Shown here one piece after another: positions 4,091 to 33,900 of a stretch of DNA of 36,157 bases. The stretch lies in the IMG/VR virus record IMGVR_UViG_3300037847_006395, positions 1 through 36,157 of that record. The stretch is one strand, 5' to 3'. This DNA is from a virus. Below the pieces are notes generated by a model, which saw only the letters and a program-made list of their open reading frames with translations, had not been told where the DNA came from and made no database searches. Numbering within the stretch: position 1 is the first letter of the stretch; each line of letters begins with the position of its first letter. The position numbers and the translations under genes are program-made.

Positions 4091-4417
4091 TTAGTTAAGT
4101 GTCTCCAAGATAGAAATTACTGCTTCTAATGTAGTTGCTTCTCCAGTTAAAACTAACTGATCTCCAGATTGTAAAAACAATTTACCATCTACTAAATTTG
4201 CAGAATCTTTGCTACTAATTGGAAAATCTGTGACGATACTTGTATCGGAAGCACTTCTTCTATGCTCTAACGTAACTTTAAGTGTTCCCGTAGTAGGATT
4301 TGATATGTTTGCTAATAAAACAATACCAGTATAACCCGTAGGAGCAGTGTATACAACTGCTGCTGTAGTCGCAACTGATGGTGTAATTGTTTTGTATATG
4401 TTTAGTTTTAATGCCAT
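4091..4417 (-). CDS. Small beta-rich virion-type protein, 108 aa, function unknown
   Basis: I recognise no named family. The protein alternates hydrophobic and polar residues (TGIVLLANISNP, GTLKVTLEHRR, DQLVLTGEATTLEAVISIL), which suggests a small beta sandwich, and it has no signal peptide or membrane segment. Similar small proteins lie between fibre genes in cyanophages and are usually called virion structural proteins, so a fibre-joint or decoration role is a guess from position. It has a strong AGGAGG ribosome site. That site is encoded by the last codons (Leu-Gly-Gly) and stop of the 960 aa fibre upstream, so the two genes are tightly coupled. The start is therefore well supported. Confidence 0.82.
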   Translation of the reverse strand: MALKLNIYKTITPSVATTAAVVYTAPTGYTGIVLLANISNPTTGTLKVTLEHRRSASDTSIVTDFPISSKDSANLVDGKLFLQSGDQLVLTGEATTLEAVISILETLN

Positions 4418-4420
4418 GGG

Positions 4421-7303
4421 TTAACCTCCTAGTGCGATGATATACGGTGTTACTTGAGAAAATAGACTTTGGGAATATGATTGACCAGAAATTTGACCCA
4501 GAGCTTGATCTATAATTACTCCATCACCAATTTTAAAGTTTCCAGATTCATTAGTACTTGTGTATATAACTAATCCACCACTTTGACTAATAGTTTCATT
4601 TTCTGGAATTGCAACTCCCCCAGTTTGAGGGAGAGCAGTATTGATATTAGTACCTGATCCTATATATTGAAATGAATGACTTGATGCTAAAAGTCTACTT
4701 TGTTTGTAAAAATTAGCAACACTACTGGTTGTTAGTGCAATGGGAACTTCATTAGCAAATGTAATATCATATACATCTGTAGAAGTCTCAAGTGTTGACT
4801 CTACGATAAAATATGAAGGAACTAATTCTCCAGTTGCTGTTGCTGTAGTTCCAGAAGTTGGTGCCGCAATTGTTGGGTTTGCTATAGTAGATCCATAACC
4901 TCTACCACTAGAAGTAACAACAATAGCAGTCACTACTCCAGTGCTTGACACCTCTGCGACTGCCTCGGCATCAATACCCCAACTTTCTGGAGAACTTGCA
5001 AGTGTCACTGTAGGAGGATTATCTGGATCATATCCACTACCACCATTGGTAATATTAATTCTTACAACCTCATAATACAAAGTATCAAAGAACACTACTT
5101 GACCTGCAAACGGACGAACTGCTTCTATCTCAGCAGTTCCTCCAGATACATATGTATGAGGAATTGTGGATGTTCCTACATTTACGGTGAATTGTGTGGT
5201 GGATGGTGTAGATTCAACTTTAAATACATATCCATAATTACCTGATGGAAATGCAGCACTACCAGATGGACTTGTGCAACTGAATGTAAGATTTTCAATT
5301 TTTACATCCATTCCTACTTCAAATCCATGTGCTGCGGTTGTGGTTACAGTCAATACCCCAGTAGTTTCTGCATAAGATGCTGTAGAAACACTTCTTTGAG
5401 TAGTCGCAATATTTACTCTAATTGTATTATCTCCAGCACTTGATGCTTGTGATACTGCACCCGTATATTTTTTAGGACTTACTCCAGTGGCAACTAAACC
5501 TTTGTTTCCAAAAGATGAATTTGAGTTTGTTAGGTCGCAGCATCCACCATTTAAACACTCAACTGCAGTATCATTACAAATGGTAAACATGGAAACTAAT
5601 TGAGCATATCCTTCATTGCTAATTTTGCAACCATGACCACCAGAGTTAAATTGTGTAAAACTATCAACTACCATAGATTTAATATCTCCTATGGCATTAT
5701 CCCCATTAATATGAAGACCAGTGGATCCGTCAATAAAATTAGTGCAATTTTGAACGTATGGTGACTGATCTATAAATGGAGGATTATTAGGATTGAATGA
5801 AATTACATCACCGTTATTAGAAGATGAAGAATTGAAAGACAAATCAGAAATATAACAACCGTTATTCACATAGATAAAATCTGTATTTCCATTTTGTGGT
5901 TTAAGTGTAACTTCTCTTAAACTACTACCAACAATTGATGTTTGTACTGGCATTATTAGTGGGTTATCTTCTGTATATTCTCCTGGATAAACTCTAATAA
6001 CAGTTCCAGCAGTTGCAACTGATAATGCAGATTTGATTGTAGCTTTTGATGTTCCTAATGTAGTACCTGTATTTGTATCATCACCATCTTTACTTACATA
6101 TATGATGTTACTTTCGGGGGCAGTTACAGCGATTGATGATCCCTGTGCTCCTGTTAATTCTACAGAAACATTTTGTCTTAAATCTATCAGATTTACTAAA
6201 CGTGCCTTTGGAGCATTAGTGTAGGCGCTACTTGCTTGAAATGTTAATTTAAATAAAGGTCTTACATCATTACGAGGAAATTTTGGAGCATTTGTAGCAT
6301 CATCATTACCAAGATCTAAATCTTCAAACTCTGCATTCATTGCCTCCCCTTCAGTTGCAAAGTCTCCTTGTCCTTGAATAGAAACTATAGGAGCATCAAT
6401 ATCAGAAGTAGCAACTATAAAATAAACTGCATAATTTCCATCAGTTACTTGAGCAGAAGACCAAGAAGCACCAGAAACATTATATTCAATAAGATTACCT
6501 GCGGAAAACTTTACCGGATATGAAGTAGCAGTAGTTCTGGTCCATTGACCACCTGTTCCATTTCTATATAAAATTGGAAATTCTCCAGCATTAGATATAA
6601 TTTGTTCAAATAAATTTGACGGGGATGCAGAATGACTTATAGTTACTTTGTAATCTTCGTTATAAAATACTCCATCTGCACCTAAACCAAATTGTGCATG
6701 ACTATTTGTAGTACCATCACCAGTGGTTGAATAACTTAGTGCAGTAAATCCAGAAGCAACTACTGCACCTCTAGTTTTTTGTAGGTATTCGTGAGTCTGC
6801 CAATCTAAGGTAATTCCATGTCTAGTATCAAAAACAAAACTAGCAACACTACCGTTCCAATATAAAATTGCAGTTGGAACTTCTGTCTTATAATTTATGT
6901 CTGCAGAACTTGCTGCTTTATTTTGCAAAACTCCATTACCATCAAAATAAACATAATACAAACCATTCGTATTTGGTATTGTAGTTGATTGTGTTGAGGT
7001 GAATGCGAATCTAATACCTTGACACCAAACATCAAATCTAGTTGATGTTGGTGCAATTGAAAATACTCTAGTAGCATTTGTGAACGATATAGTACTTTCT
7101 GAGGCATCATTATGCCCCATAGGTTCATTTGCTTCAAGAGGTGCAGTGACATCTACAATTCTTTCTGTGCCACTTTGATTTCTCTTTAAAAATATTTTGC
7201 CATCGTGAGTATTAATCGCTACTTCACCTAAATCTATTTGAGAAGTAGTGGGAGCGTTTCCAGCTGTTGCTGAACGCCTCAAGCGTATTTTTGGTGCTGC
7301 CAT
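4421..7303 (-). CDS. Tail fibre with pectate-lyase-like beta-helix segment, 960 aa
   Basis: The N-terminus MAAPKIRLRRS followed by LGEVAINTHDGKIFLKR is a cap used by marine phage fibres and is shared with the 556 aa fibre. Residues about 400 to 560 begin with YVSKDGDDTNTGTT and continue as IRVYPGEYTEDNPL and short strand repeats. This is the entry and first coils of a right-handed beta helix of the pectate-lyase superfamily, a fold typical of tailspikes that bind or cut polysaccharide. I cannot point to catalytic residues, so enzymatic activity is unproven. Residues about 750 to 825 hold two G-x-GY repeats (GGSGYDPDNPPTVTL, SSGRGYGSTIANP) like those in the baseplate giant and gp8. The end is IALGG. 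It lies 18 nt after the 71 aa coiled-coil gene. Confidence 0.88.
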   Translation of the reverse strand: MAAPKIRLRRSATAGNAPTTSQIDLGEVAINTHDGKIFLKRNQSGTERIVDVTAPLEANEPMGHNDASESTISFTNATRVFSIAPTSTRFDVWCQGIRFAFTSTQSTTIPNTNGLYYVYFDGNGVLQNKAASSADINYKTEVPTAILYWNGSVASFVFDTRHGITLDWQTHEYLQKTRGAVVASGFTALSYSTTGDGTTNSHAQFGLGADGVFYNEDYKVTISHSASPSNLFEQIISNAGEFPILYRNGTGGQWTRTTATSYPVKFSAGNLIEYNVSGASWSSAQVTDGNYAVYFIVATSDIDAPIVSIQGQGDFATEGEAMNAEFEDLDLGNDDATNAPKFPRNDVRPLFKLTFQASSAYTNAPKARLVNLIDLRQNVSVELTGAQGSSIAVTAPESNIIYVSKDGDDTNTGTTLGTSKATIKSALSVATAGTVIRVYPGEYTEDNPLIMPVQTSIVGSSLREVTLKPQNGNTDFIYVNNGCYISDLSFNSSSSNNGDVISFNPNNPPFIDQSPYVQNCTNFIDGSTGLHINGDNAIGDIKSMVVDSFTQFNSGGHGCKISNEGYAQLVSMFTICNDTAVECLNGGCCDLTNSNSSFGNKGLVATGVSPKKYTGAVSQASSAGDNTIRVNIATTQRSVSTASYAETTGVLTVTTTAAHGFEVGMDVKIENLTFSCTSPSGSAAFPSGNYGYVFKVESTPSTTQFTVNVGTSTIPHTYVSGGTAEIEAVRPFAGQVVFFDTLYYEVVRINITNGGSGYDPDNPPTVTLASSPESWGIDAEAVAEVSSTGVVTAIVVTSSGRGYGSTIANPTIAAPTSGTTATATGELVPSYFIVESTLETSTDVYDITFANEVPIALTTSSVANFYKQSRLLASSHSFQYIGSGTNINTALPQTGGVAIPENETISQSGGLVIYTSTNESGNFKIGDGVIIDQALGQISGQSYSQSLFSQVTPYIIALGG

Positions 7304-7321: not shown

Positions 7322-7537
7322 TTAATATGTTCCGGCGTCTCTATCTGTATTTACAGATTTTTTACGAGTTGCTGGTTTTTCTTTTTGAAGTTCTGAAACT
7401 TTATTTAAAGCTTCAGTAAGTTCTTTATCGTAAATTTTTAATTTTGCTTTTAATGCAATTAATTGACTTTGATAAGTGTTCAACTCAACAGTCATAACTT
7501 CAACAAGAGTTGCATAATCTACTGGAATATCATTCAT
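7322..7537 (-). CDS. Small coiled-coil protein with DAGTY end, 71 aa
   Basis: No family is recognised. Residues about 12 to 55 show heptad-like spacing of Leu, Val and Ile (LIALKAKLKIYDKELTEALN) and should form a coiled coil. A basic stretch (ATRKKS) and the end TDRDAGTY follow. The last five residues match the end of the 556 aa fibre just upstream, and the 93 aa protein before that ends in DYGTF. That suggests a shared docking or assembly end for this set. A trimeric or dimeric connector, or a fibre-assembly helper, would fit, but this is inference. There is no clear Shine-Dalgarno sequence. A GATAAATA late-promoter match lies just upstream, overlapping the previous stop codon. Confidence 0.78.
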   Translation of the reverse strand: MNDIPVDYATLVEVMTVELNTYQSQLIALKAKLKIYDKELTEALNKVSELQKEKPATRKKSVNTDRDAGTY

Positions 7538-7557
7538 AAAATTAATTCATGCTATAT

Positions 7558-7565
7558 TATTTATC
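7558..7565 (-). promoter_or_regulatory. Putative late promoter GATAAATA before the 71 aa gene
   Basis: The minus strand reads GATAAATA, one base off the T4 late consensus TATAAATA and a match to the relaxed NATAAATA form. It overlaps the TGA stop of the 556 aa fibre. Transcription would begin a few bases downstream and leave a short leader before the ATG at 7537. A functional element is inferred from sequence and position only. Confidence 0.5.
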
Positions 7566-9234
7566 AATATGTTCCCGCATCTACCGTAAGATTTTGAAGA
7601 TATCTACCAGCAGTTGTGCCATCAGGTGCATCACCTGCAAGAAGATAACTAACTATGAATTCATTAGTGCCAGCATCATCAGAAATCTTATATGAACCTG
7701 ATAAAAATGCAATTGGTGATGGAGCAACAGTGGTGCTCGATCCAGTTGCAGTTGTTTCTCCAGCAACAAATACTAAATCACCCTCATCATAACCAATAAA
7801 AATATTATCGTTATCACCACGCTCCAGTATTAAACCGATATCTCTAGTTGCAGCAGGAGTTCCAGTTGTACCAGTTCCTAATTCAAGTAAAGCATCTGAG
7901 ACTTGAGTATTGGTTGTTTGGACATTGGTAACCGTATTAGTACCAGTAACAGTTAAATTACCAGTAATAGTAACAGTGCTACCATCATCTACAATAGAAC
8001 TATTTACTAATTGTGTATTACCGTCATCCCATTTGAGGACTGTATTCGTGGTCAAGTTTGCAGCATTTTTAAATGCTAAATCTACAGTTTGAGTTTCACT
8101 TGCAGAAGAAGTTTTAGCAAGACCTTCACCTGCAGTTACATCAGCAACATAATTACCAGTGGTATCTGTGCCAAGTTCAACAGAGTTTGCTTGAATTGTT
8201 GCAACTCCGCTACTGTTGATTGTAACATCACCAGAAACTTTATCAAAAACATATGTGCTAATTGTCGAAACTTGTGCTTTACGATTAGCGCCACTTGCAT
8301 TATCATCAACAATAAATATATCTGCATCAGCAAGTGAAGTGAGTGCTGTACCACCATCAATGTTTAATGCAGAAAGTGAAACTTTATCTGCTGTTGAAAT
8401 TGTATCTAATTTGGTATCAACAATAGCAGCACCAGCATTAATATCATCATTAACAATCGTTCCGTTAAGGATCATTGCACTTGTAACTGTGCCATTATCA
8501 CCAGTAGTAATTACATTACCTGTAGTTGCTGGAAATGTAATTGTTGTACTTCCTGCTATTGCAGTAGTTATCAAATTTACAGTACCCGAAGTAGCGCCTG
8601 CAATACTAACACCGCTAGAACCTACACTGAGGGAACCAGATACATTTAAAACATCAGTATTTGGATTATATGAAAGTTCTCCATCTGTAAATACAGTCTC
8701 TAAAGTTGCATTAGTATTATTGCTATCAACAAATGTTAAAAAGAATGAGGAGTCAGTATTAGTATTTTGAGTCTCAACAGATTCTCCAGCAACAGATGGG
8801 ACGAATGAGAGAACTTCTGATCCTTGATCATATTCAAGAATATATGCACCAGCAACTCCCGGTTTATTTTGAGGTAAAGTTAAATCATATGATCCAGTTA
8901 AAGATGCAGGTGATTTTAACTCAACAGAATTTGTGCCATTATTACTACCTTCTACAAGAGTTATAATACTACCAGTAGTAGTAGTGCTTTCCGTTAAAAA
9001 TTCATCTACTCTGGAGGTATAAGAAGATCCTCCAACATGAACAAACGAAGTAGGACCGTCTGCAATATAAAAGTCACCAGTTCCAGTTCCAGCAGTGCCT
9101 GGAACTGAACCATTAGTATCAGAAAAAAATGGTTCACCAACAAGTGCAGGAGTAGTATTAAAAACTTGCCCCGAACCAGTTAATGTTTGGGGGTTGGATG
9201 TGCCCCTCCTTAACCTTAAGCGTGGTGCTGCCAT
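7564..9234 (-). CDS. Modular tail-fibre protein, 556 aa
   Basis: This is a virion fibre protein with the MAAPRLRLRRG cap shared with the 960 aa fibre, so both probably dock on similar baseplate sites. Residues 150 to 200 contain NTDSSFFLTFV followed by LSYNPNTDVLNVSG. This is a variant of the ADES-x-DTTCFPLF plus LTFNSSNGTL repeat of the 863 aa fibre. The middle is Thr/Ser/Asn-rich with regular beta strands. A later module reads LTVTGTNTVTNVQTTNTQVS and then LLELGTG, again like the 863 aa fibre. The C-terminus is LTVDAGTY. No catalytic motif is visible. A perfect TATAAATA lies about 30 nt upstream of the ATG in a 44 bp gap, so this gene probably opens its own late transcript. There is no clear Shine-Dalgarno sequence. 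Confidence 0.88.
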   Translation of the reverse strand: MAAPRLRLRRGTSNPQTLTGSGQVFNTTPALVGEPFFSDTNGSVPGTAGTGTGDFYIADGPTSFVHVGGSSYTSRVDEFLTESTTTTGSIITLVEGSNNGTNSVELKSPASLTGSYDLTLPQNKPGVAGAYILEYDQGSEVLSFVPSVAGESVETQNTNTDSSFFLTFVDSNNTNATLETVFTDGELSYNPNTDVLNVSGSLSVGSSGVSIAGATSGTVNLITTAIAGSTTITFPATTGNVITTGDNGTVTSAMILNGTIVNDDINAGAAIVDTKLDTISTADKVSLSALNIDGGTALTSLADADIFIVDDNASGANRKAQVSTISTYVFDKVSGDVTINSSGVATIQANSVELGTDTTGNYVADVTAGEGLAKTSSASETQTVDLAFKNAANLTTNTVLKWDDGNTQLVNSSIVDDGSTVTITGNLTVTGTNTVTNVQTTNTQVSDALLELGTGTTGTPAATRDIGLILERGDNDNIFIGYDEGDLVFVAGETTATGSSTTVAPSPIAFLSGSYKISDDAGTNEFIVSYLLAGDAPDGTTAGRYLQNLTVDAGTY

Positions 9235-9263
9235 ATCGTTAACTATTTACTCTTTAATAAAAT

Positions 9264-9271
9264 TATTTATA
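9264..9271 (-). promoter_or_regulatory. Putative T4-type late promoter TATAAATA before the 556 aa fibre
   Basis: This is an exact match to the T4 late consensus on the coding strand, in a gene-free gap between the 93 aa gene and the 556 aa fibre. The ATG at 9234 is about 29 nt downstream, which leaves a short leader. In T4 such sites are read by host RNA polymerase with gp55 and the sliding clamp. Confidence 0.75.
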
Positions 9272-9278
9272 AAACAAA

Positions 9279-9560
9279 TTAAAATGTTCCATAATCTATG
9301 GCATTATCTGATGGTCCAACGGGATCGTCACTGTCAGATCTATCGACAACTTCAAATGGAGGTACATATTCATGAATATTTCTAAGTTCATTCCACATCA
9401 ATACATAACCTTCTTGTCTATCTGTAGTATCTACATCACCTAATCCTCCTAGGGTATTAGCTTCTGTAGTAGTAGATACATCTACATTAATTTTAGATTT
9501 TTTTACTGCTTGGACAATTTTTTGATTGCCTAAATTTAATCTTACGTTGTATTTTGACAT
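9279..9560 (-). CDS. Small fibre-associated protein with LGDVDTTD module, 93 aa
   Basis: Residues about 38 to 66 read LGGLGDVDTTDRQEGYVLMW and then NIHEYVP. This matches the L-x-x-L-x-DVD-x-x-x-x-x-G-x-V-L-x-W/Y module that often occurs between shaft segments in marine phage fibres. Here it is a free-standing 93 aa protein, so a fibre joint or collar is likely by inference. The N-terminus is basic (QAVKKSKINV). The C-terminus, AIDYGTF, resembles the DAGTY end of its two downstream neighbours. It starts 2 nt after the 116 aa gene's stop (TAA AT ATG). A CATAAATA element overlaps this junction, but transcription from it would begin inside the gene. Confidence 0.8.
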   Translation of the reverse strand: MSKYNVRLNLGNQKIVQAVKKSKINVDVSTTTEANTLGGLGDVDTTDRQEGYVLMWNELRNIHEYVPPFEVVDRSDSDDPVGPSDNAIDYGTF

Positions 9561-9562
9561 AT

Positions 9563-9913
9563 TTATGTGACCGAAGGTTGAACTTCAATGACCCCAGTAA
9601 TAACCTTCTCTTTAATTGAAGAACTGTCAATTAACATGATATCATATACATATCTACCAAGTTTTAATGAATCAGTACCAGTAACCAGATTAGTAGTAAC
9701 ATCAGGCAATGATATTTGAATTAATCCGGTAGTTGCATTAATTACTTGAGCGTTTAAATTAATTTTACTTGTTGTAGTATAATTTCTTGCCATTTTCGCT
9801 TCTACTGTATAAGTGCTCAAATCTATAAGAGTATTATCAGAATTTCTTATATTGATAGAAACACTAAAGTCAGTATTTTTAAATATTGTAAAATTAATAG
9901 GAATCGCTGACAT
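9563..9913 (-). CDS. Small beta-sandwich virion-type protein, 116 aa
   Basis: The protein reads as a single immunoglobulin-like or baseplate-upper-protein-like beta domain. It contains FTIFKNTDFSVSINIRNSD, then YTVEAKMARNY, an asymmetric turn region, and YVYDIMLIDSSSIKEKVITG near the end. BppU-type N-terminal domains of other phages have this ordering (xFxKGDxFSxxIxIxxxDGTxxDLTGYTV), so a role in linking a receptor-binding protein to the baseplate is plausible but not proven. It follows a CATAAATA late-promoter match by about 25 nt and has a GGGAAG purine run ahead of the ATG. Confidence 0.82.
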   Translation of the reverse strand: MSAIPINFTIFKNTDFSVSINIRNSDNTLIDLSTYTVEAKMARNYTTTSKINLNAQVINATTGLIQISLPDVTTNLVTGTDSLKLGRYVYDIMLIDSSSIKEKVITGVIEVQPSVT

Positions 9914-29966: not shown

Positions 29967-29974
29967 TATTTATT
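29967..29974 (-). promoter_or_regulatory. Putative late promoter AATAAATA before the 42 aa gene and gp25
   Basis: The coding strand reads TGAATAAATA, where TGA is the stop of the 217 aa gene and AATAAATA matches the NATAAATA late form. It lies about 36 nt before the 42 aa gene and is the only such match upstream of gp25 and gp6. It could start the baseplate transcript. Confidence 0.5.
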
Positions 29975-30623
29975 CACTCTTTTCTTCGGGTGTTTTCCAA
30001 AAATAATCATCAGTATCACCCAATCTACCCCATCGTACACCCTGCTCAACCTGATAATACTCAGTAGAAACCTTAAAATCTGGCATTTTAGGTTCTTGAG
30101 GGGTAATTGACAGGTCGAAAATTCTAATTCTGTTGTTTGGATACAGTGCAAACTGTCCATTTTCCAACAAAATGCAATTATGGGACTTATGTTCCTCTGG
30201 AACTTCACTAACATTAGTATTTGTAATGTCTATATCAGGATGAAAATTGTCTAATGTGAACAAATACTCTCCAGACATTGCCCCAAAATTACGAGTTCGA
30301 CATACAATGTCCATAGAACCGATGAATTGCTTCTCAATACAACGCACTCCATAGTCCATACAATTCCAAAATTGAAGGTTAGGTAGGTCTAAGTCATGTT
30401 CAGGCAGTTCAGGGCGACTCAGGAAGGCACTGATGGGCAATTTATCGAACATTGCAGCGTACTCTGGTAAGTACGTCTCAAAATAAAAAGCACGTCCAGG
30501 TATCGATTTTGCCGACACCCAAACGCCTTCTACGAATTCTCCATGACCGTCAATATGATCTCTAAGATATTCTTTACGAACCCATACCTTCTGTGCTGGT
30601 AAGTTGACGACTAATTGACTCAT
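29970..30623 (-). CDS. Conserved-looking phage protein of unknown function, 217 aa
   Basis: I cannot name a family. The protein is compact and not repetitive, with a mix of beta and helical character and three cysteines. It has several specific-looking segments: VWVRKEYLRDHIDGHGEF, GRAFYFETYLPEYAAMFD, and WNCMDYGVRCIEKQFIGSMD. This suggests a folded globular protein rather than a fibre. It sits between a run of tiny genes and gp25, a place where cyanophages keep a protein of similar size. A baseplate-assembly or virion role is guessed from position. The ribosome site AGAGGA lies about 8 nt before the ATG and overlaps the end of the 51 aa gene upstream. Confidence 0.85.
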   Translation of the reverse strand: MSQLVVNLPAQKVWVRKEYLRDHIDGHGEFVEGVWVSAKSIPGRAFYFETYLPEYAAMFDKLPISAFLSRPELPEHDLDLPNLQFWNCMDYGVRCIEKQFIGSMDIVCRTRNFGAMSGEYLFTLDNFHPDIDITNTNVSEVPEEHKSHNCILLENGQFALYPNNRIRIFDLSITPQEPKMPDFKVSTEYYQVEQGVRWGRLGDTDDYFWKTPEEKSE

Positions 30624-30973: not shown

Positions 30974-30999
30974 ATTCTCCTGTCAATAGTTAGGAGAAT
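30974..30999 (-). promoter_or_regulatory. 8-bp inverted repeat at the PAAR stop codon
   Basis: ATTCTCCT and AGGAGAAT are perfect complements separated by 10 nt. One arm covers the last codons and stop of the PAAR gene. The other contains an AGGAG that could act as a ribosome site or, in T4-like phages, a RegB-type GGAG cut site. No run of T follows on the coding strand, so it is not a typical intrinsic terminator. An mRNA stability or processing hairpin is more likely. Confidence 0.45.
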
Positions 31000-31346
31000 A
31001 ATCCTGCAAAGACATTTGGACTTCCTTGAGCAATCCTGTCTCCGCAGGCAATAAAATCACCAATCCTACCTGGAGGACGAAAATTAAAATAAACATTTAG
31101 AGGACCCTGTGAGATAGGTCTAATAAGGTGTGGAGGGGGCGGATTAGTGCCGGGGCATGCATGTGGTGCAAACAGGTCTCCTACACGCCCTGCAGGACCT
31201 CCTATCCCTGCGAAAGTTGCTCCTGGAGCAAGAGATGCAGGGGATGGGCAATTGATGAAAACGTTTGGTGAACCTTGAGTTAGTGCTGTTGGTGGATAAC
31301 AGATATGTCCAGTACTCAATGCACCCATATATGTACAACCTCTCAT
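30990..31346 (-). CDS. PAAR-repeat spike tip protein, 118 aa
   Basis: PAAR proteins cap the central spike of contractile tails and help pierce the outer membrane; T4 gp5.4 is the known example. The protein has the family traits: high Gly/Pro content, GRVGDLFAPHACPG and GRIGDFIACGDRIAQGSPNV, and 118 residues. The short motif QGSPNVF occurs at residues 24 to 30 and 107 to 113, with a degenerate QGPLNVYF at 80, which fits a three-fold beta cone. Likely metal ligands at the tip are among His14, Cys16, His62, Cys64, His73 and Cys101. It has a good AGGAG site and follows the 253 aa gene by 11 nt. The absence of a recognisable gp5 hub in this window suggests that it is encoded elsewhere. Confidence 0.92.
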   Translation of the reverse strand: MRGCTYMGALSTGHICYPPTALTQGSPNVFINCPSPASLAPGATFAGIGGPAGRVGDLFAPHACPGTNPPPPHLIRPISQGPLNVYFNFRPPGRIGDFIACGDRIAQGSPNVFAGLFS

Positions 31347-31357
31347 AAATTAATCTC

Positions 31358-32119
31358 CTATAATGTTATTTTGCGTGGATTGGGAAACTGTAATGGATTT
31401 CTCCCTAATTGAGTTTGCACTTTAGTCACAAACCTTTGTGCAGCGATATCCTTATCGTCATACACAATTTGTTTAATTGTATATGTACCAGCACCAATTC
31501 CACAAGAACTTGTAATGACAAGAGTATATTGCACAACAATAACATATCTTGGATCCGGAAAATAATGAATCATATGATCCACTGCTGGTAAATCAGCAAT
31601 TAATCCAGCAACTGGATCCCCAGCAATAGGTTTTGAAATAACCGGATTTAGGAAAGGTTGTCGTATTGCAGGTGTTGCTGTTAATTGATTTACTGTACCA
31701 TAGTTTGATGAATATCCAGAAGGACCTACAACTGGCACAGGTGCATGTACGGGAACTGTTGAAAGATCACTGCGATATTTATATTCTTTATTGGGAAATA
31801 AGTAATCAGTATAACCACCTGGAGCATCTATACTTAATGTTGCTGTTACTGGTCCGGTTAAAACTCCAGTTGTGATAACACCAGCACCAAGAACTGTGGC
31901 AGTTCCAGGTGTCAATCGTAAAGTAATACCAGGATCACCGTTATAGGGTGCAGGTGCAATAATTGGTGTGAAATTAGTTACAGTAATACTCCATATCTCT
32001 GGTACTGGTGGATTCCCAGGACAAAAGGTTCCGGTCCAAACATTTGGAGTCCATACCGCAGGTTTACCAACAATACTTGGTAATGGTTGTATGGGTGTGT
32101 ATACGGTGGGTATTGGCAT
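31358..32119 (-). CDS. Beta-rich virion-type protein related to the 590 aa neighbour, 253 aa
   Basis: No named family is recognised. The protein opens with a Pro-rich stretch (MPIPTVYTPIQPLPSIVGKP), continues as beta strands, and has a segment near residues 95 to 125 with GGYTDYLFPNKEYKY. The same arrangement (GNYTRFLFPNEEWDYYFD) occurs in the 590 aa protein just upstream, so the two share a domain. The C-terminus is more helical and basic (AAQRFVTKVQTQLGRNPLQF) and ends KITL. The gene lies just before the PAAR tip, so a spike, hub or decoration role is inferred only from position. It begins 8 nt after the 590 aa stop, with no strong ribosome site, which suggests coupling. Confidence 0.83.
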   Translation of the reverse strand: MPIPTVYTPIQPLPSIVGKPAVWTPNVWTGTFCPGNPPVPEIWSITVTNFTPIIAPAPYNGDPGITLRLTPGTATVLGAGVITTGVLTGPVTATLSIDAPGGYTDYLFPNKEYKYRSDLSTVPVHAPVPVVGPSGYSSNYGTVNQLTATPAIRQPFLNPVISKPIAGDPVAGLIADLPAVDHMIHYFPDPRYVIVVQYTLVITSSCGIGAGTYTIKQIVYDDKDIAAQRFVTKVQTQLGRNPLQFPNPRKITL

Positions 32120-32127
32120 AAGTTTAA

Positions 32128-33900
32128 TTAAAATCCATCCTGACGACCAGGTTCTGCTAATGTGATACTTTTTGCTTCTCTTCGAGAAGGTAATGCTGCA
32201 ATTATATTACCATATCTTTCAGTACCAGACAAGTAATTATTAATTACGTTCTGTCTAATCTGTACAGTGGCAGCACCATACTCTGTACCACCCATATCAG
32301 GAACATAGCGAAAGACTGCTCCGGTTGCTACTGGTGGTTCTCCTGATGTTCCTTGGAAATTGCCTGTACCTGTGGGAGCAGTATCTGATGCACCTGCTAC
32401 TACCACACGATACAAATTACCACCGCTAGTGACGTAAGTACCAACGGTATAGGACCCTATTGTCCATGGAGAACTATTCCAGGCAGGTATACTACTAGTC
32501 ACAGTAAAAGTATAAGTGATATCACGATTAGTCACTGGATCCTGTAGATATCTCAAGATAAATGCATCCGAAGGAAATTCTAATGATAAATCAAGAACAT
32601 TTCCATTAATAGCAGTCTGAGAAGAATTACCCTGCCTAATACGATAGGCATCAAATTTATCATTAGGATCTCCACCACGCTGTGGTTTGTCCGTCGCATC
32701 TAAATTTAAAATTGCATCTTCAAACTGAGTATCAGTAACAAACGTAGGCAATTCACCTTCGGCATTTAAAATAGAACTATTGTTAAATCGTTTCTGCTCA
32801 TTAGGAAAGTCAATACTCAAATGCTGAGGAATAACTGTATAATCTTCATTCTTATCAAAGTAATAATCCCATTCTTCATTAGGAAATAAGAATCTGGTAT
32901 AGTTACCTTCTACATGAATTGTAATAGTGTCTGGATAGGTTGCGCTGACACTGATATTGCTGAGATTATTCTTATCACATGTGGTAGTACTAATGACTGT
33001 ACCACTTCCATTTCTTTTAATTAATTGTACTACGATGTCTTCATCGATGAAAGGAGTATTTTCTAAGATGTTTGGACTGAAACTATCAAAGGTCACCGTA
33101 ATCGTTTCTTCCCTTTCAATTGTAAGTAACGCGGGGTTTTTACCTGTTGACGTACCCTGACTCGTATAATAGTCATTCGGTTGACTATACCAGTCCGGAC
33201 GACCATCAATATCAAAACCTAAAGTATCAAATCGTACATCTAACCACCTCACAAACCCTGCATCATCCGTCTGAGTCAGATCATCATCATAATAGACGTA
33301 TCGATCTGTTGCAGTGGTATATCCAGTAATACTGAAATCTACACTGACAAACTGATCAACATTCATAAATGTTTCTGAGTCATTACTGTATGCATTCGGT
33401 ACATATTGTTGTACTCGAAATACTCCGCCATAATCTTTCAGTGCTGCAGTATGGGCAGGATATGCCGGAGGTGCTGGTGTAACTGTCGGATCAACATACT
33501 CTGCAGGAAAGGTCACGGCAGCATCCTCCGTACCAATCTCATGTTTTATAAACAATCCCGTAATCTGTCCGGCATTATATGTGTACGTTGATAGAATTAC
33601 CCCTTGATATACGGTATTTCCTTCACTGTCCGTACCTTCAACGACGAATACGAAAGTCTTTTCATCATCTGGATTATTAATTGCCCAAGTAATCGCACCA
33701 CTACTACTGTTAATATTGAAACTACTTGCATCAGTTCCACTGAGAGCATAACTGACTGCATTTGGTATACTTCCAGACCAATTGACACTATCTCCAATGG
33801 ATTCTGTTCCACTGAAGGTTAGTGTCTCTGCTACTGATGTTCCTGCTGCTGGTACTGATATATTACCAAATTCTTCAATAATACTTGGATAGTATGGCAT
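32128..33900 (-). CDS. Multi-domain beta virion protein with cadherin-like start, 590 aa
   Basis: Residues about 20 to 105 resemble a cadherin-like or Ig-like repeat (YALSGTDASSFNINSSSGAI, then FVFVVEGTDSEGN). The middle has further beta domains. Around 330 to 360 it has GNYTRFLFPNEEWDYYFD, shared with the 253 aa protein. Residues about 477 to 533 contain WTIGSYTVGTYVTSGGNLYR followed by a Gly/Thr-rich loop and VFRYVPDM. This looks like a small carbohydrate-binding-type module, and a similar module ends the 3245 aa protein. The last 45 residues are more basic. Surface attachment or host-surface contact is plausible; a neck or spike role is not excluded. The upstream gene's stop sits 3 nt before the ATG and forms part of a GAAGAA ribosome site. 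Confidence 0.85.
   Translation of the reverse strand: MPYYPSIIEEFGNISVPAAGTSVAETLTFSGTESIGDSVNWSGSIPNAVSYALSGTDASSFNINSSSGAITWAINNPDDEKTFVFVVEGTDSEGNTVYQGVILSTYTYNAGQITGLFIKHEIGTEDAAVTFPAEYVDPTVTPAPPAYPAHTAALKDYGGVFRVQQYVPNAYSNDSETFMNVDQFVSVDFSITGYTTATDRYVYYDDDLTQTDDAGFVRWLDVRFDTLGFDIDGRPDWYSQPNDYYTSQGTSTGKNPALLTIEREETITVTFDSFSPNILENTPFIDEDIVVQLIKRNGSGTVISTTTCDKNNLSNISVSATYPDTITIHVEGNYTRFLFPNEEWDYYFDKNEDYTVIPQHLSIDFPNEQKRFNNSSILNAEGELPTFVTDTQFEDAILNLDATDKPQRGGDPNDKFDAYRIRQGNSSQTAINGNVLDLSLEFPSDAFILRYLQDPVTNRDITYTFTVTSSIPAWNSSPWTIGSYTVGTYVTSGGNLYRVVVAGASDTAPTGTGNFQGTSGEPPVATGAVFRYVPDMGGTEYGAATVQIRQNVINNYLSGTERYGNIIAALPSRREAKSITLAEPGRQDGF

Follow-up and report, generated by a model that had tools for sequence, protein, structure and literature searches.

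Collars of the T5 p132/LtfC type are dodecameric rings in which strands of the fibres are received. In DT57C, the LtfC ring accommodates two short strands from the N-terminus of LtfA, the fibre protein (PMC10713586), and in the assembly of T4 trimeric gp36 binds gp37 at its N-terminal region (PMC3004832). Gene 36 lies directly before gene 37 in the T4 genome, and gp36 ends in ...VQDFGYY. Among cyanophages, the myocyanophage Pam3 has a tail fibre with a dedicated assembly protein (PMC9608196). Fibre segments set which hosts can be adsorbed, and little is known of the way in which cyanophages and pelagiphages join them.

We analysed IMGVR_UViG_3300037847_006395, a record of 36,157 bases (the window, at its full length). 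It belongs to a T4-like marine phage of the Kyanoviridae type and covers a portion of its tail region, with gp6, gp25 and gp8 homologues and a series of fibre genes. Pam3 is among the closest known systems; unlike here, no such C-terminal tag as that reported below is described for Pam3 in the available part of that source (PMC9608196). Three consecutive genes of the window encode proteins with the same five-residue end (the tag), most likely because it plugs one fibre segment into the front of the next one. Judging from the sequences, we put at roughly 85 % the probability that segments of the long tail fibre are connected by plug-and-socket joints in which the tag is the plug, of the same kind as the joint of T4 gp36 and gp37. 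The gp36-gp37 type of joint was known, and we explain the end with good confidence as the tag of such a joint, which in marine phages has come to lie on several unrelated proteins. With an end of five residues and a partner domain that can be recognised, the order of fibre segments would become readable from sequence, hundreds of 'hypothetical' small proteins could be named as adaptors, and the T4 gp36-gp37 joint would be testable at the residue level in a laboratory phage.

The shared C-terminal end

Translation of the minus strand gave ...NAIDYGTF as the end of a 93-aa adaptor (9279..9560; tag DYGTF and stop codon, 9279..9296), ...LTVDAGTY as that of the 556-aa fibre F1 (7564..9234; tag DAGTY and stop codon, 7564..7581) and ...NTDRDAGTY as that of a 71-aa coiled-coil protein (7322..7537; tag DAGTY and stop codon, 7322..7339). 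The DNA pattern for D-x-G-T-[YF]-stop, GAYNNNGGNACNTWYTRA, had three matches in the 36,157-base record, all on the minus strand and solely at these three gene ends, while its reversed control had none in the same record, which bears out the original prediction that three consecutive genes share this end. The pentapeptide had also been called identical, which is true of the two DAGTY ends, the 93-aa protein having Y at the second position. The rest of the proteins is unrelated in the window, as had been stated, but in some cyanophages adaptor and F1 share a longer C-terminal stretch (...LTT...PVWTxT[IL]DGG). We found no paper naming the D-x-G-T-[YF] motif.

In loci around related modules, 28 of 487 nonredundant predicted proteins stop exactly with D.GT[YF], where the frequency of the motif at internal positions (7 in 199,348) predicts 0.017 and shuffled tails predict 0.015, so the C-terminal enrichment is real; the looser D.G.[YF] ended 44 proteins of this set, as compared with 0.17 expected. 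A chance origin of the tag was ruled out by the pattern search together with the enrichment of 28 over 0.017. Since these loci had been picked via the module, a second sample of 80 contigs was drawn by the fibre N-terminus pattern alone. The tag was found on 80/80 upstream adaptors and 63/63 complete fibres of these contigs, which were taken among the matches listed and are mutually related (P-HM2-like, N-terminus 69-97 % identical to the query). Relatives at 38-50 % identity have kept the tag, as have cultured cyanophages and the phages of Pelagibacter and Methylophilales. The F1 N-terminal pattern occurred in at least 600 stretches of the viral_contigs collection, the fibre family being very abundant in marine viral contigs.

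The three tags differ in detail. Across 15 loci of the window type, one of them the window itself, the consensus was [D/S/N]-Y-G-[TS]-[YF] for the adaptor, D-[ACG]-G-x-[YF] for F1 and mostly D-[AG]-G-x-[YF], with a few decayed copies, for the coiled-coil protein; the second position was Y in 15/15 adaptors, A, C or G in F1, and A, G or S in the coiled-coil protein. In named phages, with partner classes assigned by hand once the data had been seen, tags predicted to be directed at the terminal fibre F2 had D in 13/13 cases and those directed at F1 had N in 5/7 (p 0.0014). As a general rule this D/N assignment was rejected, since it fails in window-type phages, where the role shows at the second tag position. 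The tag can also carry one extra residue (DCGTYP, DGGTYS, DFGYYS), a point against its acting as a plug.

A shared DNA element or gene conversion might have copied the ends, given that the window's F1 and coiled-coil ends have GGAACATAT in common and that the late-promoter-like sequence TGATAAATA overlaps the F1 stop codon in 13/14 window-type loci, TGA being followed directly by TAAATA (7558-7566, minus strand). However, this promoter-like sequence begins at the stop codon, past the tag, and T4 gp36 carries the same end in a distant genome. Synonymous codons of F1 and coiled-coil tags were identical in 29/55 cases when both tags came from one genome and in 351/675 when they came from different genomes; the codons of matching tag residues are as different within as between genomes, and therefore selection acts on the protein and not on a DNA element. 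The DNA-based origin for which the original prediction had allowed is already contradicted by this evidence, and we regard it as scarcely credible.

Collar protein and adaptor

The gene directly preceding that of the adaptor encodes a 116-aa protein (9563..9913, minus strand) whose sequence profile matched 7qg9_R (E 0.005) and whose AlphaFold2 model (pLDDT 85.5) had 7qg9 (8.8e-7) and 8hqz (6.6e-6) as top Foldseek matches. On both sequence and predicted fold it is a collar protein of the T5 p132/DT57C LtfC type, and it is the presumed anchor that would hold the 93-aa adaptor. The collar fold matches tail-tip collars and the Sf14 neck region alike (Foldseek; PMC11821841), and many cyanophages have the module next to the neck genes gp13-gp14; on the virion it may sit at the neck or at the baseplate. 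The window resembles T5 and DT57C in having a protein with the LtfC fold and adaptors that start with strand-like segments, comparable to the N-terminal strands of LtfA (PMC10713586). Whereas the long fibre of T5-like phages docks on the collar itself, here a small C-tagged adaptor would stand between the two, strand donation being putative.

The adaptor, recognised from its relatives and its translation, combines an N-terminal strand-like segment (K-Y-x-V...), a central G-Y-V-L-M-W hairpin motif and the C-terminal tag, and is related to small proteins after the collar gene in many Kyanoviridae. Members of the family follow the collar gene in S-T4, S-CAM9, Sf-CH5, S-SKS1, S-SRM01, ACG-2014f, P-HM2, S-8S56, Mosig (Pelagibacter) and Melnitz (Methylophilales), and the adaptors of these ten phages all end in [DN]-x-G-x-[YF]; a tagged adaptor is also present in P-SSM2. 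Adaptors of named phages belong to PHROGs 13853/3384, of unknown function, while the window's own had no PHROG match. Its AlphaFold2 model was poor (mean pLDDT 56), and PDB sequence searches with adaptor, F1 and F2 returned nothing useful. A 127-aa adaptor (L055:10345-10728) has the central hairpin motif twice, and S-B43 and B23 have two tandem adaptors, both tagged (L010:11385-11947 and L009:11668-12524, respectively).

Elsewhere in the window, a gene of a PHROG 'ferredoxin' family (29970-30623) and one for a PAAR-motif-like protein (30990-31346) adjoin the baseplate wedge genes, and two further proteins among the tail genes, of 253 aa (31358-32119) and 590 aa (32128-33900), had no PHROG matches.

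The socket domain and the order of the fibre segments

The N-termini of F1 (MAAPRLRLRRGT) and F2 (MAAPKIRLRRSA) are one domain, which we named the socket and which reads h-R/K-h-K/R-R-[SGT]...GE. F2 (960 aa, 4421..7303, minus strand; PHROG 17885/3442) ends in ...PYIIALGG, without a tag; its socket (MAAPKIRLRRSATAGNAPTTSQIDLGEVAIN..., 7148..7303, minus strand) was matched at 8.7e-11 by a profile built without window-type rows and is the domain found at the N-terminus of T4 gp37. F1 (PHROG 15769) starts with a socket-like domain (MAAPRLRLRRGT...GEPF, 9100..9234, minus strand). Profile-profile comparison of 11 window-type F1 N-termini with the socket profile gave a probability of 95 % (E 3.9e-8), and a sequence profile alone gave no match to the window's F1 socket; that this socket is detectable solely by profile-profile comparison counts against the plug function. 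A PDB search with the socket profile yielded nothing useful.

Across the whole T4 genome, the socket profile had a single match, to residues 7-49 of gp37 (8.2e-11), which is the distal protein of the long tail fibre. The end D-F-G-[YT]-Y was present in 24/24 gp36 sequences (T4 and 23 relatives at 40-91 % identity), six of which had an extra serine and one of which (L200) ended in DFGTY, the exact motif of the window, and it is among the best-conserved pentapeptides of gp36. The tag was absent from T4 gp34, gp35, gp37 and gp38, and gp35 ends were likewise without it. In this type of joint, D-x-G-x-[YF] lies on the proximal segment, as in the window ends and the 24/24 gp36 relatives, and a gp37-type N-terminal domain on the distal one, as in T4 gp37, the window's F2 and, by profile-profile comparison, F1. 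The original prediction knew of no described function for such an end; its match is the conserved C-terminus of gp36, a protein already described as a binder of gp37 at the N-terminal region (PMC3004832).

As in T4, then, the tagged protein ends in D-x-G-x-Y, its partner starts with the same domain (IQFKRS...GELAIN) and the genes are adjacent. In contrast to T4, the marine tag is carried by an adaptor of 70-95 aa, a fibre of 500-750 aa and sometimes a coiled coil of 70 aa, none of them detectably gp36-like. Neither the adaptor profile nor the F1 N-terminal profile matched gp36, only the C-terminal end being common, and as far as full-length sequence homology tells, the window's tag-bearing proteins do not belong to the gp36 family. 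Because adaptor and F1 are not gp36 homologues outside the end, the link to T4 rests on the short tag and the socket. Marine joints also differ in that they can be serial, and the chain probably begins at the LtfC-like collar and not at gp9/gp34/gp35.

Synechococcus, Prochlorococcus, Pelagibacter and Methylophilales phages showed a regular division: adaptors, the start pieces, have a tag and no socket, F1, the middle piece, has a socket and a tag, and F2, the end piece, has a socket and no tag. Apart from a coiled-coil protein in some phages, only start and middle pieces bear the tag. P-SSM2, P-HM2, S-CAM9, S-8S56, Mosig, Melnitz and AG-345-F15 had two tags and two sockets each, and S-T4, Sf-CH5, ACG-2014f, S-SKS1 and S-SRM01 had one of each. 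All 16 tag-bearing genomes gave a strong socket match (E <= 2.6e-8), as compared with 0/13 tagless genomes, where the best score (6.8e-6) came from a different, YadA-type fibre. Tag and socket occurred together in 16 genomes and were both missing in 13 (Fisher p 1.5e-8, with kinship ignored and the genomes non-independent), and among 16 genomes sampled through gp8 alone, 3 had both and 13 neither (p 0.0018, kinship ignored). This distribution is the one predicted by a directional chain of start, middle and end pieces. The segments would be ordered collar-adaptor-F1-F2 in the virion, the adaptor would plug directly into F2 in phages without F1, and the last five residues themselves would form the contact.

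The terminal (or only) socket gene was distant from the adaptor in ten genomes, among them S-T4, Sf-CH5, ACG-2014f, S-SKS1, S-SRM01, P-SSM2, S-CAM9 and S-8S56, and in nine it encodes an F2-like fibre and has behind it a small gene such as that after the window's F2. The latter encodes a 108-aa protein (4091..4417, minus strand, from translation and comparison with other phages), and similar proteins (end SILETLN or similar) follow the F2 gene in other phages even with F2 distant from the adaptor. Tags outnumber sockets in S-B43, B23 and the window, which speaks against a plug, and in S-B43 and B23 this is because each of the two tandem adaptors is tagged. S-SM2 has a collar-type gene (L034:29491-29880) whose annotation is L-shaped tail fibre assembly, and adaptor, tag and socket fibre are all absent from this phage.

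Adaptor and F1 form a single protein in five cases, Synechococcus phage DSL-LC03 and four viral contigs, with the joint consensus ...VTNE[VI]DGQ[VI]NP[TK]IKIKR... (for example, ...KWVVTNE-IDGQVNP-TIKIKRTT...). An alignment of 100 aa between the DSL-LC03 joint and P-SSM2 spans the gene boundary of the latter, INGGNF(stop) / MASIIRIKRSS, and in the fused proteins only a few residues separate the position of the tag from the socket's first strand. A single fusion event probably gave rise to all five fused genes; adaptor-F1 fusions were found in the freshwater DSL-LC03 lineage only, with none among the 80 P-HM2-like contigs, and the loci fetched contained no F1-F2 fusion. B23 has another fusion, of collar and adaptor, with the tag again at the end.

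These results bear on the functions that the original prediction had offered for the end. A trimerisation or folding cap, closing the C-terminus of each fibre-like protein without any partner, would agree with the position of the tag at the very end, behind beta-rich sequence, and with several cyanophages in which it closes a recurring stretch, ...PVWTxTIDGGxF. We consider it unlikely because F2, T4 gp37 and T4 gp34 are without the tag, the first two being fibre end pieces, and because in the coiled-coil protein it sits on a basic tail; moreover, the tag co-occurs with the socket domain across genomes and runs into it in the fusion. Recognition of the tag by one shared assembly factor, a chaperone of the gp57A/gp38/TFA type, is very improbable, even though neighbouring genes have the tag in common, the tagged proteins include a small coiled coil, and fibre chaperones are common (PMC9608196, PMC3004832). 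The listed clients of T4 gp57A are gp12, gp34 and gp37, and gp38 acts on gp37 (PMC3004832), whereas the tag is on gp36, and co-occurrence with a socket is not predicted by this explanation. A docking tag, also among the functions offered, is favoured by the division into pieces, the tag-socket co-occurrence, the fusion and the T4 counterpart.

The coiled-coil protein

The 71-aa coiled-coil protein, which had no PHROG match and resembles a gp57A-like chaperone in its size and coiled-coil character alone, has a basic tail, RKKSVNTD, ahead of its tag. Since this tag resembles that of F1 and the gene directly precedes F2, the protein possibly targets the F2 socket, in which case its tag would aim at the same socket as the F1 tag. 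To judge by sequence, it may provide a second anchor there, or act as a cap or as a helper. Some coiled-coil proteins have decayed tags (SDSESF, VDGNEF, QSSDI), a point against the plug, and similar coiled coils in P-SSM2, DSL-LC03 and L030 lack the tag. As a tentative extension, which we hold to be possible at best, T4-like phages may use a transferable joint code in which any protein gaining D-x-G-x-[YF] would become pluggable into gp37-type fibres, with the free 70-aa coiled coil of marine phages capping, guarding or second-anchoring the socket of the terminal fibre. The last residue was the same in the F1 and coiled-coil tags in 14/15 cases (permutation p 0.009, kinship ignored).
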